DNA of 64,000 bases, taken from Paraburkholderia sp. SOS3. Its GTDB lineage: Bacteria > Pseudomonadota > Gammaproteobacteria > Burkholderiales > Burkholderiaceae. The stretch is from assembly GCF_001922345.1 (NCBI RefSeq), contig NZ_CP018812.1, forward strand, positions 2,418,001 to 2,482,000, given 5' to 3'. A program made the position numbers and the translations under genes. Within the stretch, counting starts at the first letter, position 1. Each line of letters opens with the position of its first letter. Below are positions 35,837 through 41,154 of this stretch, piece after piece. The notes below the pieces were generated by a model that saw only the letters and a list, made by a program, of their open reading frames with translations, was not told the origin of the DNA and searched no databases.

Positions 35837-36870
35837 TTCGCGGCCTCGCCGACGGGCTTCGCTTGCGCGAACGAAAAGACTCGCTTCACGTGCCTGACGA
35901 GCAGCGTGCGCGCCGACTCCGACTGGATCACGCAGACCAGCAGCACGACGATCGCCTTCACGACGAGCGTCGCTTCGGGCGGCACGCCGATCGAATACGT
36001 CGTGTACGTCAGCGTCTGGATGATCAGCGCGCCGATCACCGTGCCGGCGAGACTGAAGCGGCCGCCGGCGAGCGACGTGCCGCCGAGCGTCACCGCGAGA
36101 ATCGCGTCGAGCTCGAGCAGCAGGCCCGCGTTGTTGCCGTCGGCGCTGCGCACGTTCGAGCTCATCAACACGCCTGCGATCGCGGCCATCAGCCCCGAGA
36201 ACACATAAACAGCGAACACGATCAGGCTCGAGCGCAAGCCGACCAGACGCGTCGCCACCGGATTGACGCCGATCGCGCGAATGAACAGGCCCAGCGCCGT
36301 GCGGCTCATCAGCAAGACCGTCGCCGCGGTCACTGCCGCCGCGACCCACACCGCGCACGGAATGCGCGCGAGATAGCCGCCGCCGATCACGAGATAAGCG
36401 GGCGCGCCGATCGGAATGATCTGCCCGCCCGTCAGCAACTGCGCGACGCCGCGGCCGGCCACCATCAGAATCAGCGTCGCGATGATCGGCTGCATGCCGA
36501 CGAACGCGACGAGCACGCCGTTCCATGCGCCTGCAACAAGACCGACAGCGAGCGCGGCGGCCACCGCTGTCGTCACATTCGCCGCGTTGTCGGCAAGCAG
36601 CATCGCCGCGGCGGCCCCCGCGATCGCCACCACCGCGCCGACCGAAATATCGATGCCGCGCGTCGCGATCACGAGCGTCATGCCGAGCGACACGATCACG
36701 AGCGGCGCCGCGCGATTGAGAATGTCGATCGGCGCGCCGAAGAAGTGGCCCTCGAACATCGAAATCGCAAGAAAGTTCGCGCGATACGCAACGTCGAGCG
36801 CAATCAGCAACACGAGCGTGAGCACCGGCCACACGAGCGTATGCTGAAACGCGGCTTTGATCGCTTTCAT
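35833..36870 (-). CDS. ytfT: Sugar ABC permease YtfT-like
   Basis: A 345-residue permease with about ten helices. The conserved RbsC-type segment ATRGIDISVGAVVAIAG is present, as is GGTSLAGGRFSLAGTVIGAL in the second half. It overlaps the ATPase gene by 4 bases upstream and YjfF by 4 bases downstream, so the three are translationally coupled. Order and lengths agree with the YtfQ-YtfR-YtfT-YjfF system that imports galactofuranose. Confidence 0.94.
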   Translation of the reverse strand: MKAIKAAFQHTLVWPVLTLVLLIALDVAYRANFLAISMFEGHFFGAPIDILNRAAPLVIVSLGMTLVIATRGIDISVGAVVAIAGAAAAMLLADNAANVTTAVAAALAVGLVAGAWNGVLVAFVGMQPIIATLILMVAGRGVAQLLTGGQIIPIGAPAYLVIGGGYLARIPCAVWVAAAVTAATVLLMSRTALGLFIRAIGVNPVATRLVGLRSSLIVFAVYVFSGLMAAIAGVLMSSNVRSADGNNAGLLLELDAILAVTLGGTSLAGGRFSLAGTVIGALIIQTLTYTTYSIGVPPEATLVVKAIVVLLVCVIQSESARTLLVRHVKRVFSFAQAKPVGEAAK

Positions 36871-38381
36871 TGATCACTCCCTGCAATGAGCCGATACACC
36901 TGATCTTCGGATACCGCGTTGCCCGCGATTTCCGCCACCTTGCGCCGATCGCGCAGCACCGCGATGCGGTGGCTCACGCGCACCACTTCGCTGACTTCGG
37001 ACGAGATGAACAGCATGCCGAGTCCTTTCGCACACAACGCGAGCACACGGTCCATGATTTCGAACTTCGCGGCGACATCGATGCCGCGCGTCGGTTCGTC
37101 GAGAATCAGCATCTTCGGCTCGGTCGCGAGCCAGCGCGCGAGCAGCACCTTCTGCTGGTTGCCGCCCGATAGGAGACCGATCGGCTGTTCGGCGTCGCGC
37201 GCCTTGATGCCGAGCATGCCGATGTACTCGTCGGCCATCTCGCGCTGCCTGGCGCGGCTAATGGCACGCCACCAGCCGCGCCGCGCCTGCAGCGCGAAAA
37301 CGATGTTCTCGCGTATCGACAGCTCCGCGACCACGCCTTCCTTCTTGCGGTCTTCCGGGCAATAGCCGATGCCGTGGCGCACTGCATCGTGCGGCGAGCG
37401 CAGCTTGACGCGCTTGTTGTGCGCGAGCACCGTGCCCTCGTCGGATTTCTCGGCGCCGAACAGCAGCTTCGCCGTTTCGGTGCGGCCGGAGCCAAGCAGG
37501 CCCGCGAGACCGAGAATCTGTCCGGGCCGCACGTCGATATCGATCGGGTTCAGCAAGCCGCGCCGCCCGACGCCGCGCATCTCGAACATCGGCTGAGCTT
37601 CGCTTGCGGCCTTCGGCGGCTCGCTCGCCGCCTGTTTCAGACGCTCGGACATCCGCGCATGGCCGACCATCTTCGCGACCAGTTCGTCGACCGGCAGGTC
37701 CTTCGCCAGATACTCGCCTTCGCGCTCGCCGTTGCGCATCACCGTGATGCGATCCGATATCGCGTAGGTCTGCTCGAGAAAGTGCGTGACGAACAGAATT
37801 GCAATGCCCGACCGCTTGAGCTTGCGCAGCACGTCGAACAGGCGCGCCACTTCGCCGTCGTCGAGACTCGAGGTCGGTTCGTCGAGTATCAGCACGCGCG
37901 CATCGACCGATACCGCGCGCGCGATCGCGACCATCTGCTGGACCGCGATCGGATAGGCGTCGAGCGAGCGCGTGACGTCGAGCGACACGTTCAGATCGGC
38001 GAGCGCCGCCTCGGCCCTCGCATGGATCGACTTCCAGTCGATCGCGCCGCGCCGCTTCAAATGCCGCCCCGCGAAGATATTCTCCGCGACCGACAGATTC
38101 GGACACAGGTTCACTTCCTGGTACAGCGTGCGAACGCCGGCGGCTTCGGCTTCGAGCGGCGTCGCGAACTGCACGGGCTGGCCCGCGAGATGAATCGCGC
38201 CGGCGTCGTAGGCATGCACGCCCGTGAGCACATTGATGAGCGTCGATTTGCCCGCGCCGTTCTGTCCCATCAGCGTGTGGACCTCACCGGGGAACAGGCG
38301 GAAATCGACGCCCTGCAACGCGTTGACACCCGGAAACGACTTGCTGATGCCGAGAGTTTCGAGAATGGGAGAGTCGCTCAT
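36867..38381 (-). CDS. ytfR: Sugar ABC ATPase YtfR-like (two nucleotide-binding domains)
   Basis: A 504-residue fused ATPase. Domain 1 has Walker A GQNGAGKST, the signature near SIAVQQMVAIARAV and Walker B ILDEPTSSLD. Domain 2 has a degenerate Walker A (GLLGSGRTE) with an intact signature LSGGNQQKVLLARWL and Walker B LILDEPTRGID. This asymmetry is normal for the RbsA/MglA/YtfR family. The start is the ATG at 38381; an intrinsic terminator lies between it and the upstream binding-protein gene, so it is expected to be expressed below the binding protein. Confidence 0.95.
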   Translation of the reverse strand: MSDSPILETLGISKSFPGVNALQGVDFRLFPGEVHTLMGQNGAGKSTLINVLTGVHAYDAGAIHLAGQPVQFATPLEAEAAGVRTLYQEVNLCPNLSVAENIFAGRHLKRRGAIDWKSIHARAEAALADLNVSLDVTRSLDAYPIAVQQMVAIARAVSVDARVLILDEPTSSLDDGEVARLFDVLRKLKRSGIAILFVTHFLEQTYAISDRITVMRNGEREGEYLAKDLPVDELVAKMVGHARMSERLKQAASEPPKAASEAQPMFEMRGVGRRGLLNPIDIDVRPGQILGLAGLLGSGRTETAKLLFGAEKSDEGTVLAHNKRVKLRSPHDAVRHGIGYCPEDRKKEGVVAELSIRENIVFALQARRGWWRAISRARQREMADEYIGMLGIKARDAEQPIGLLSGGNQQKVLLARWLATEPKMLILDEPTRGIDVAAKFEIMDRVLALCAKGLGMLFISSEVSEVVRVSHRIAVLRDRRKVAEIAGNAVSEDQVYRLIAGSDQ

Positions 38382-38411
38382 GAGCGTAGCGAAGACGAAG
38401 AAGAAAGCCTG

Positions 38412-38451
38412 AAAAAAGTCCGGCGCCGCGCGTGCCGCGCCGGCGCCGGAC
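38412..38451 (-). terminator. Terminator/attenuator between ytfQ and ytfR
   Basis: On the minus strand a 10-bp stem, GTCCGGCGCC (38451-38442) with GGCGCCGGAC (38427-38418), encloses a GC-rich loop and is followed directly by TTTTTTC (38417-38411). It lies 20 bases past the ytfQ stop and 30 bases ahead of ytfR. This suits partial termination that keeps the binding protein in excess over the membrane complex. Confidence 0.85.
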
Positions 38452-38469
38452 CTGCTACTCGACGGGGAC

Positions 38470-39438
38470 CTAGTACTTGCGCGTCGGCAGCACCTGGGCG
38501 GCGACGCTCATCGGGAACACCGTCTCCTCGGTGGTGATGCGCTTGGGCAACTGCTTGCCGGCGACGATGTCCTTCGCGGCCTGCATCAGTTGCGGCCCGA
38601 GCAGCGGGCTGCATTCCACGTCGACGTTGATCTTGCCCGCGACCATCGCCTGGAAGCCGCCCTTCGTCGCGTCGAACGAGACGACGCTGATGTCGGTGCC
38701 CGGCTTCAGGCCCGCTTCTTCCATCGCCTGGATCGCGCCGAGCGCCATATCGTCGTTATGCGCGTAGACGACGTTGATCTGCTTGCCGTACGTCTTCGCG
38801 AACGCCTCCATCACCTGCTTGCCGCCCGCGAGCGTGAAGTCGCCGCTTTGCGACGCGATGATCTTGAACTTCGGATCGTTCTTGATCACTTCCATGAGGC
38901 CCGCATGACGATCGTTGGCCGGCGCCGAGCCGACCGTGCCCTGCAGTTCGACGATATTGATCGGGCCTTTGTCGTTCTTGTAGCGCTCTTCGAGCCAACG
39001 GCCGCCGCGGCGGCCTTCCTCGAGGAAGTCGGAGCCGATCATCGTCACATACAGCGACTTGTCCTTCACGTCGATGTTGCGGTCGGTCAGGATCACCGGA
39101 ATCTTCGCGTTCTTCGCTTCGGTCAGCACCGGCTCCCAGCCCGATTCGACAACCGGCGAAAATGCGATCACGTCCACTTTCTGCGCGATATACGAGCGAA
39201 TCGCCTTGATCTGGTTTTCCTGCTTCTGCTGCGCGTCCGAGAACTTGAGATTGACGCCGGCGTCCTTCGCGGCCTGCTTGACCGACACGGTATTGGCGGT
39301 GCGCCATGCGCTTTCGGCACCGACCTGTGCGAAACCGAGCGTGATTTTCTTGTCTTCCGCGTGACCGTTGATGGCCGCCGCGAACAGCAGCGCCGAACCG
39401 ACCAGCGCGCCCAGTGTCAGGCGTCTCGTGTGATTCAT
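38470..39438 (-). CDS. ytfQ: Galactofuranose-type binding protein YtfQ-like
   Basis: A 322-residue periplasmic binding protein of the ribose-binding-like fold, with a signal peptide (core LGALVGSALLFAAAING, cut near GHAEDKK). It shows the YtfQ start KKITLGFAQVGAESAWRTAN and ligand-pocket segments ILTDRNIDVKD and GTVGSAPANDR. The start is the ATG at 39438 with GGAGACAGGAA upstream. It is the first gene of the importer operon. Galactofuranose is the ligand of E. coli YtfQ; related sugars are possible here. Confidence 0.94.
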   Translation of the reverse strand: MNHTRRLTLGALVGSALLFAAAINGHAEDKKITLGFAQVGAESAWRTANTVSVKQAAKDAGVNLKFSDAQQKQENQIKAIRSYIAQKVDVIAFSPVVESGWEPVLTEAKNAKIPVILTDRNIDVKDKSLYVTMIGSDFLEEGRRGGRWLEERYKNDKGPINIVELQGTVGSAPANDRHAGLMEVIKNDPKFKIIASQSGDFTLAGGKQVMEAFAKTYGKQINVVYAHNDDMALGAIQAMEEAGLKPGTDISVVSFDATKGGFQAMVAGKINVDVECSPLLGPQLMQAAKDIVAGKQLPKRITTEETVFPMSVAAQVLPTRKY

Positions 39439-39933
39439 TTCCTGTCTCCGATTTATATCGTCTGTTCTGGCGCCGGCTACCGCAGGCGAGCGTCCTTACG
39501 GGCACGCGACAGCAAAATGCTGGCGCCACCTTTCGCAACACTGCACAATCGATCAAGCAGCCCAACTGGAAACGTATTAACTGAAGCCGGCGCAACGCGA
39601 CGCCCCCGCTCGTGACAGCGAATCGGGTCCACCCGGTCCGTTAATAGCCAAACTATATCCATGCGCCCGTGCGGCGGTGATTGGTACTTTCCCGAGCCTC
39701 GAGACGCCTGCGCGTTTCATCATTCTCACTGCATAGCGCGCGCCAGATCCCGTATGCGGCGACCACCGAAAAACCCCGGAAGTCCTTCGGCGTGCGGTAC
39801 GAGCCTCCAATATCCATCCGATATAGTCCTACTATTTAGGCAACTCGCGATGCAGCTCAGTGCGAGAACCGTGTATCGGCCGCCGTGTGCCGCGTGAGCG
39901 TGCGGCGAATCGATCGTTTATCGCCGCAAAATA
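39439..39933. other. Divergent region between ytfQ and the Fic gene
   Basis: No gene seen. A TATAAA element near 39452-39457 (minus strand) may be the -10 box of ytfQ. AT-richer patches at 39640-39660 and 39810-39840 may hold the Fic promoter. A dyad TGCGGCGA (39901-39908) with TCGCCGCA (39921-39928) forms an 8-bp stem with a 12-base loop just ahead of the Fic control elements. Confidence 0.5.
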
Positions 39934-39998
39934 TGCGGAGATAAATTTGCCGATGCGGTCAATGAGGCGCATAATCTCCGCATGGAAAGCGGAGATTA
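39934..39998 (+). promoter_or_regulatory. Start-codon hairpin and repeated GCGGAGAT element at the Fic gene
   Basis: TAATCTCCGC (39972-39981) and GCGGAGATTA (39989-39998) form a perfect 10-bp stem whose 7-base loop, ATGGAAA, contains the Fic start codon. A third copy, GCGGAGATA, lies upstream at 39935-39943. The nearest Shine-Dalgarno candidate is GAGG at 39964-39967, rather far from the ATG. The layout suggests either translational control by RNA structure or a protein operator covering the start codon. Confidence 0.72.
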
Positions 39999-41154
39999 CC
40001 TTTACATCTGGGAGGCGCCGGACTGGCCGCGATGGCGCTACGACCTCGCGTCGCTGGCCGCACCGCTCGCGGCAGTCACCGGCGCGCAGGGGCTGCTGCT
40101 CGGACGCATGTACGACGCCGGCCTCGCGCAGCGCGAGGAAGCCAACCTCGCTGCACTGACCGCGGACGTGCTGAAAACCAGCGAGATCGAAGGCGAATCG
40201 CTGAACGCGCATTCGGTGCGCTCGTCGATCGCACGCCGGCTCGGCGTCGATATCGGCGCGCTCGCGCCGGTCGATCGCCACGTCGAAGGCGTCGTCGAAA
40301 TGACGCTCGACGCCACGCTGCGCTGCAACTCGGACCTCACGCGCAGGCGTTTGCTCGGCTGGCACGCCGCCCTCTTTCCGACCGGCTACAGCGGGCTCAC
40401 GCCGATTCGCGTCGGCGCCTATCGCGACGACGCACGCGGCCCGATGCAGGTCGTGTCCGGCTCCGGCGCCCGTCAACGCGTGCACTTCGAAGCGCCGCCG
40501 GCACCGCGGCTCAAGAAGGAAATGGCGCGCTTTCTGCGCTGGGTCGACGGCAATTTCGATCACCATCCGATCCTGAAGGCCGGCATCGCACATCTGTGGT
40601 TCGTCACGCTGCACCCGTTCGACGACGGCAACGGCCGTATCGCGCGCGCGATCGGCGACATGGTGCTTGCGCAGATGGATCACACGGAAAGCGGGCGGCG
40701 CTTTTATAGCCTGTCCGCGCAGATCCAGCGCGAGCGGCGCAGCTATTACGAGATCCTCGAGCGCACGCAAAAAGGCACGCTCGACATCACCGCGTGGCTT
40801 GCATGGTTCCTCGAGAATTTGCAGCGCGCCCTCGACGCCGCGCTCGCCACGCTCGACACCGTGCTCGCGAAATCGCGTTTCTGGCAGCGCATGGCCGGCA
40901 CGCCGCTCAACGAGCGCCAGTCGAAGCTCGTCAACCGCCTGCTCGACGGCTTCGACGGCAAACTCACGAGCAGCAAGTGGGCAAGCATCGCGAAGTGCTC
41001 CCCGGACACCGCGCTGCGCGACATCAACGAGCTGATCGCGGCCGGCGTCCTGCGCAAAACCGACGGCGGCGGGCGCAGCACCGCTTACGAGCTGGCCGCG
41101 ATTTCCGCGCCGGACGATCGCCACGACGCGCCCGCTGTGCGACGCACGCACTGA
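39982..41154 (+). CDS. Fic-domain protein (class II, N-terminal inhibitory helix)
   Basis: A 390-residue Fic enzyme, a family that transfers AMP or other nucleotide moieties to target hydroxyls. The core motif HPFDDGNGRIAR (residues 211-222) is complete, with catalytic His211. The N-terminal part has the inhibitory motif T66-S-E-I-E70-G71 (S/TxxxE[G/N]), whose Glu70 should block ATP, so this is an autoinhibited class II Fic. The C-terminal 90 residues look like a winged helix (DTALRDINELIAAGVLRKTD), common in this branch and able to bind DNA. The start is fixed by the conserved YIWEAPDWPRWRYD segment. It has no antitoxin gene, in line with internal inhibition. The target is unknown. Confidence 0.9.
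   Translation: MESGDYLYIWEAPDWPRWRYDLASLAAPLAAVTGAQGLLLGRMYDAGLAQREEANLAALTADVLKTSEIEGESLNAHSVRSSIARRLGVDIGALAPVDRHVEGVVEMTLDATLRCNSDLTRRRLLGWHAALFPTGYSGLTPIRVGAYRDDARGPMQVVSGSGARQRVHFEAPPAPRLKKEMARFLRWVDGNFDHHPILKAGIAHLWFVTLHPFDDGNGRIARAIGDMVLAQMDHTESGRRFYSLSAQIQRERRSYYEILERTQKGTLDITAWLAWFLENLQRALDAALATLDTVLAKSRFWQRMAGTPLNERQSKLVNRLLDGFDGKLTSSKWASIAKCSPDTALRDINELIAAGVLRKTDGGGRSTAYELAAISAPDDRHDAPAVRRTH

Follow-up and report, generated by a model that had tools for sequence, protein, structure and literature searches.

A conserved six-half-site array across the promoter and start codon of a DUF4172-Fic gene: a probable autoregulatory operator with copies in phage genomes

Introduction

Among the described systems closest to the one treated here, CccR of Yersinia pseudotuberculosis is a Fic protein with a winged helix-turn-helix (wHTH), published as an autorepressor (PMC9755527); the accessible part of that report describes a dimer which represses its own promoter through inverted repeats near -35 and -10. 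In the present work, a 64,000-nucleotide stretch of Paraburkholderia sp. SOS3 (the window; contig NZ_CP018812.1, positions 2,418,001 to 2,482,000) was analysed around a fic gene whose product, like CccR, combines a Fic domain with a C-terminal HTH, and whose promoter and start codon are covered by an array of inverted repeats.

Two other systems bear on this locus. For CbFic2 of Coxiella burnetii (PDB 8CIL), the available text reports that the enzyme turns toward deAMPylation once bound to DNA; the work is described there as using random DNA only, and its authors call for a specific binding sequence (PMC10628234). Relatives of SoFic, a class II Fic protein with a C-terminal domain and similar in this to the window protein, are anti-phage proteins, and the E. 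coli SoFic system has a 47-aa antitoxin, AS1, encoded downstream; how these proteins are activated in infection is left open by the Sofic authors in the sections at hand (PMC12249575).

Results

Six half-sites surround the start of the fic gene

A sequence-only reading of the window had described, at the fic start, a perfect hairpin whose loop holds the start codon and, upstream, a third copy of the arm; all of these are present: TAATCTCCGC (39972-39981) and GCGGAGATTA (39989-39998) flank the loop ATGGAAA (39982-39988), and the arm copy GCGGAGATAA stands at 39935. This third copy is not a stray one, since it forms the right arm of a second dyad at 39918-39944, TTATCGCCGC-N7-GCGGAGATAA, having the same 7-bp centre as the start-codon dyad. 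Further half-sites are found at 39901 and 39954, and the feature is therefore larger than a hairpin with a third copy. The dyad is beyond chance expectation: the 27-bp pattern with up to 3 mismatches occurs twice in the 64 kb and never in 100 shuffles. The 8-mer GCGGAGAT alone is unremarkable, with 8 occurrences in the window for a shuffle mean of 4.7 and at least 8 in 8 of the 100 shuffles. Over the whole 7.5-Mb genome, a stricter pattern matches only at 39918-39944 and at the start codon, and a looser one adds two copies, both in a prophage-like segment.

Taken together, six half-sites of the form TGCGGnGAWTA stand around the DUF4172-Fic-wHTH gene as two triplets 54 bp apart, each made of a forward (F), a reverse (R) and a forward half-site with gaps of 7 and 5 bp (F-7-R-5-F). 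Counted from the ATG, the forward half-sites lie at -82 or -81 (the window has -81), -48, -28 and +7, and the reverse ones at -64 and -10:

39901 to 39911, + strand: half-site F1, TGCGGCGAATC, 1 mismatch to TGCGGnGAWTA; at -82 in 77/103 loci and at -81 in 10/103
39918 to 39928, - strand: half-site R2, TTATCGCCGCA as read on the + strand, 1 mismatch; kept in 87/103
39934 to 39944, + strand: half-site F3, TGCGGAGATAA, the third copy of the sequence-only reading, 1 mismatch; kept in 90/103
39954 to 39964, + strand: half-site F4, TGCGGTCAATG, a degenerate copy in the window with 2 mismatches, placed in the promoter spacer; kept in 98/103
39972 to 39982, - strand: half-site R5, TAATCTCCGCA as read on the + strand, 0 mismatches; kept in 103/103
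39988 to 39998, + strand: half-site F6, AGCGGAGATTA, 1 mismatch; kept in 103/103; spans codons 3-6 and includes the hairpin 3' arm

R5 includes the hairpin 5' arm and, as read on the + strand, ends on the first base (A) of the start codon. Conservation was followed in loci of more than 60% identity, 104 with the window, of which 103 had enough upstream sequence (L074 was dropped) and 66 remained after dereplication. Allowing 2 mismatches, all six half-sites are kept in 78 of the 103 loci, whereas 12 loci keep five, 2 keep four, 10 keep three and 1 keeps two; allowing 1 mismatch, a region holds 4.44 half-sites compared with 0.03 in dinucleotide shuffles. On these comparisons, the hairpin very probably consists of two of the six half-sites of a DNA operator through which Fic would regulate its own gene.

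The second triplet overlies a predicted leaderless promoter

The promoter elements and the start codon are as follows:

39947 to 39952, + strand: -35 element TTGCCG; TTG here in 94/103 loci
39970 to 39975, + strand: -10 element CATAAT; CATAAT at -12 to -7 in 84/103 loci
39982 to 39984, + strand: start codon ATG, with no Shine-Dalgarno sequence

No possible start lies between the preceding stop and the ATG at 39982, and this ATG is found at the same place in 103/103 loci, window included; the sequence-only reading had held the start to be well fixed. TTGCCG/CATAAT, with a spacing of 17 bp, is the sole sigma-70 match within 39600-40100 and overlies the second triplet. As an internal control, bases belonging to the promoter only carry 1.5-1.9 bits in triplet 2 and 0.1-0.3 bits in triplet 1; C at -12 and A at -11, neither of them part of the half-site, have 1.54 and 1.89 bits compared with 0.17 and 0.15 at their triplet 1 equivalents. 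The -10 element ends 6 bp before the ATG, a distance identical in 103/103 loci, and a Shine-Dalgarno 4-mer within -16 to -4 was found in 1/66. Given this spacing, transcription should start at the A of the ATG (39982), and the predicted leaderless mRNA would therefore lack the hairpin 5' arm. Leaderless genes are present in Burkholderia cenocepacia and enriched in regulators, according to the part of the report available (PMC4603805). As in an autorepressor of the CccR kind, the inverted repeats at fic overlap the -35 and -10 of its own promoter.

The gene product belongs to the CbFic2 type

39982 to 41154, + strand: Fic protein, 390 aa, with DUF4172, inhibitory motif, Fic motif and C-terminal winged helix

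The Fic motif HPFDDGNGRIAR and the class II inhibitory motif TSEIEG are intact, with most positions invariant or nearly so among 29 sequences, and the N-terminal DUF4172 (Pfam PF13776) scores 100.8 bits for a cut-off of 25. In the structural model, a C-terminal winged helix spans residues 311-371, with PDTALRDINELIA (341-353) as recognition helix; the protein thus has DUF4172, the Fic and class II motifs and the C-terminal winged helix that mark the CbFic2 type. CccR was absent among the matches listed in a fold comparison of the model, which has no bearing on CccR. The PADLOC model of SoFic, listed by PADLOC as a defence protein, matches the window protein with an E-value of 8.7e-38; for the NCBIfam SoFic equivalog the score is 43.2 bits, below the cut-off of 550.

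Half-site classes follow the recognition helix across the family

In order to cover the family more widely, 397 genomes of the phylum were searched for DUF4172; 82 had a match and 70 matching places were read. For 66 of 86 wider loci, a repeat search free of any motif scored higher than every one of 12 shuffles. A clade of the same genus with 43-45% identity (16 loci) has arrays built from TGAGTCGATTA, again around a 7-bp centre, and these stand upstream of the start codon rather than over it. Half-site typing of 152 loci gave TGCGGnGAWTA in 97, TGAGnCGAWTA in 33, TGAGnnATA in 16 and rarer types in 6. Asp occupies one particular recognition-helix position in 96/96 alignable TGCGG loci (L150 could not be aligned) and in 0/55 others; moreover, TGATTAATA goes with the helix PIATTTR (3/3) and TGTCCTATA with ISRTASR (1 locus). 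In the sequences compared, the array is thus found to persist across the family while its half-site changes with the recognition helix.

Convergent F-R pairs have a commonest TG-to-CA distance of 28 or 29 bp in each class found. The 5-bp R-F gap is absent in the TGAGnnATA class, and the F-R pair is therefore the likely dimer site. A reverse half-site ends on the A of the ATG in 78/97 TGCGG, 14/16 TGAGnnATA and 3/33 TGAGnCGAWTA loci. On a tree made by a quick method from 98 rows, winged helix excluded, the half-site class needs 6 changes compared with a shuffled mean of 45.4, and the TGAGnCGAWTA label needs 4, at least 3 of them forced by well-supported branches.

Among wider Fic-wHTH proteins collected with the SoFic model (none above its cut-off), 9 of 26 scorable loci exceeded all 6 shuffles, some narrowly, so that the array is mainly, not solely, a trait of the DUF4172 clade. 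The fic genes of loci L474-L477, L485, L487, L491, L497 and L498 are SoFic-like and have no DUF4172; the repeats upstream of them score above all 6 shuffles, in some cases narrowly, and are made of other half-sites.

Exact triplets occur in prophage and viral DNA

Away from fic, this genome has a further operator triplet, located in a prophage-like segment of 19.7 kb that is present on contig C2 and on the 27.6-kb contig C3 with 99.6% identity:

C2 about 17493 (L203 1501-1523) and C3 about 5446 (L205 1501-1523): triplet of the prophage-like segment, just upstream of CTGTACATCCATACAG and a 110-aa open reading frame (ORF)

CTGTACATCCATACAG resembles a LexA box.

In IMG/VR, the exact triplet is found in at least 120 stretches, and two altered spacings gave 0 and 0. 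From 46 viral records with the triplet (third site with up to 2 mismatches; records possibly fragments), 8 have a DUF4172 gene and 38 have none, one of the latter (L275) with a weak Fic match; a winged-helix search of the 46 records gave 7 matches, all within the 8 DUF4172-bearing records. Counting own and re-fetched loci, there are 135 triplet sites in 129 loci, of which 27 share their locus with a Fic homologue and 108 do not. The viral loci were picked by exact triplet match and the ORFs in them mechanically; the viral loci that have no fic gene hold 90 distinct triplets, and 45 of these lie inside ORFs of at least 150 aa, 21 in sense and 24 in antisense orientation and in all frames. The second class, TGAGnCGAW, occurs in 21 viral stretches compared with 0 for its control, with fic in 3/21 loci and without it in 18/21. 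TGAGYTATA pairs, for which the evidence is weaker, number 42 compared with 7 for the control spacing, with fic in 1/42 loci.

Eight viral contigs (L215, L216, L225, L253, L261, L287, L307 and L339) carry a DUF4172-type fic gene adjoining an operator array. Triplets also lie inside phage genes that are exonuclease-like (L219, L375, L390), gp46-like (L299, L362, L391) or ribonucleotide-reductase-like (L235, L358, L360, L381, L392); the exonuclease-gene triplet is missing from two named homologues, L467 and L468. No triplet was found in 8 stretches of named phages related to L213 and L219, and single half-sites with up to 1 mismatch in the named phages L507, L509 and L510 were taken as chance.

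Neighbouring genes

Among ORFs of at least 60 aa flanking fic in 80 loci, no widely conserved neighbour was found, the best cluster being present in 10/80 at mixed positions, and a partner regulator of that size beside fic is therefore unlikely. In the 600 bp that follow fic, ORFs of 25-70 aa form one cluster found in 19/80 loci (L006, L015, L017, L018, L019, L020, L023 and 12 others among L003-L082), with starts mostly 15-82 bp downstream of the gene; a second, antisense-looking cluster occurs in 13 loci. AS1 of the E. coli SoFic system is encoded downstream, and a small antitoxin in part of the present family is conceivable. Upstream of fic in the window (36867-39438), the translations, read by eye, show divergent ABC-transporter-like genes, for an ATPase and an exported binding protein.

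Discussion

The second triplet appears fused to the predicted leaderless promoter, one half-site lying in the spacer, another extending from the -10 element as far as the A of the ATG and the third in codons 3-6. We infer that a Fic dimer binds the convergent F-R pair via its C-terminal winged helices; bound Fic would block RNA polymerase at its own promoter, and expression would therefore be confined to conditions in which little free Fic is present. By analogy with CbFic2, contact with DNA may in addition turn the enzyme from AMPylation to deAMPylation. The sequence-only reading had also considered that a protein might sit over the start, with Fic and its winged helix as one possibility, and this proposal finds good support in the comparisons between loci (the conserved half-sites, the motif-free scan and the association of half-site and helix) as well as in the winged-helix fold predicted by the model.

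Several points weigh against an operator read by Fic. In 20 of the 86 wider loci, the repeat score fell short of at least one of the 12 shuffles; the seven half-site classes, one of which was found nowhere, were chosen after the motif-free scan had been seen; and F4 of the window carries 2 mismatches. The TGCGG class needs a single change on the quick tree, so that its link with Asp may be one event. The structural model has a mean predicted local distance difference test score (pLDDT) of 61.6; its C-terminal part, however, reaches 74-92. The small ORF just 3' of fic in 19/80 loci also counts here, as do the many phage arrays without an adjoining fic, which make a further reader of the site possible.

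Such a reader could be another, unlinked regulator for which the array is a real DNA site, as the exact triplets in so many viral loci without fic would suggest. This is nevertheless unlikely: the half-site class changes with Fic's own helix, a whole-genome search found no close relative of the winged helix standing alone in this genome, and the 38 viral records (out of 46) that have no DUF4172 gene gave none either, though these records may be fragments and the search would miss distant domains. As for a regulon in the own genome, F-R pairs with up to 3 mismatches gave 231 matches compared with 83 for the reversed pattern in a GC-rich background, and with fewer than 2 mismatches only the fic promoter pair was found.

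Control of translation by an RNA hairpin that carries the start codon in its loop, the main idea of the sequence-only reading, is very improbable. Folding of the 141 nt around the start does include the hairpin, with a z-score of -3.8, and most stem pairs are nearly invariant; however, such a fold is what an inverted-repeat array would be expected to give anyway, and the 5' arm lies outside the predicted transcript, which begins at the ATG. Moreover, the 10-bp stem is perfect in just 12 of the 66 loci, where no conserved covarying stem was found, the variable central pair being complementary in 20/66 compared with 19.4 by shuffling. Half-sites of the same kind also stand upstream of the promoter, and in the 43-45%-identity clade the array is wholly upstream of the start. 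Codon 5, within F6, is GAT in 55, GAA in 9 and GGT in 2 of the 66 loci despite a preference of the gene bodies for GAC (0.60) and GAG (0.66), indicating constraint on the DNA sequence rather than on the amino acid. It is accordingly scarcely credible that F6 reflects coding constraint on the conserved codons 3-6 (mostly S-G-D-Y) and the remaining half-sites mere promoter sequence, as Asp and Glu are exchanged there exclusively as GAT and GAA, and the triplet is kept upstream too, where the promoter-only bases are not.

With the array read as the operator of Fic, CccR provides a precedent for autorepression, so that the array is a variant of a known control and the description of an undescribed control mode was too strong. 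The CccR footprint differs, consisting of two repeats, AGATAATCAT-N26-ATGATAATCT, and the accessible part of that report makes no mention of a leaderless start-codon overlap, triplets or a family-wide code; CccR is further a secreted effector (PMC9755527), and nothing observed for the window Fic relates to secretion. No literature on this operator array or on its phage copies was found in a search largely outside subscription journals, and the phage copies are an unexpected dimension. In phage lambda, the leaderless, autorepressed cI gene likewise has an operator close to its leaderless promoter; the protein is unrelated.

It is conceivable, if on balance doubtful, that operator DNA acts as the antitoxin of Fic, which would be repressed and non-AMPylating when bound and toxic when free, and that phage operators are decoys keeping Fic bound. 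This idea comes from the phage triplets, the mostly fic-less loci holding them and the SoFic defence match; in a milder version, phage genes may simply be regulated by the host Fic. As relatives of SoFic are anti-phage proteins whose triggers are unknown, the phage-borne operators are a novel lead.

Consequently, where CbFic2 was studied with random DNA, according to the text available, the array is a candidate specific ligand for the DUF4172-Fic family (PMC10628234). It offers this family a concrete, mutable operator candidate together with a recognition-helix code for testing it, and phages with the same sites bear on the question raised by the Sofic authors of how toxicity is held off and then released in infection. 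Operator, helix code and site-bearing phages therefore make the questions of both the CbFic2 and the Sofic authors directly testable.
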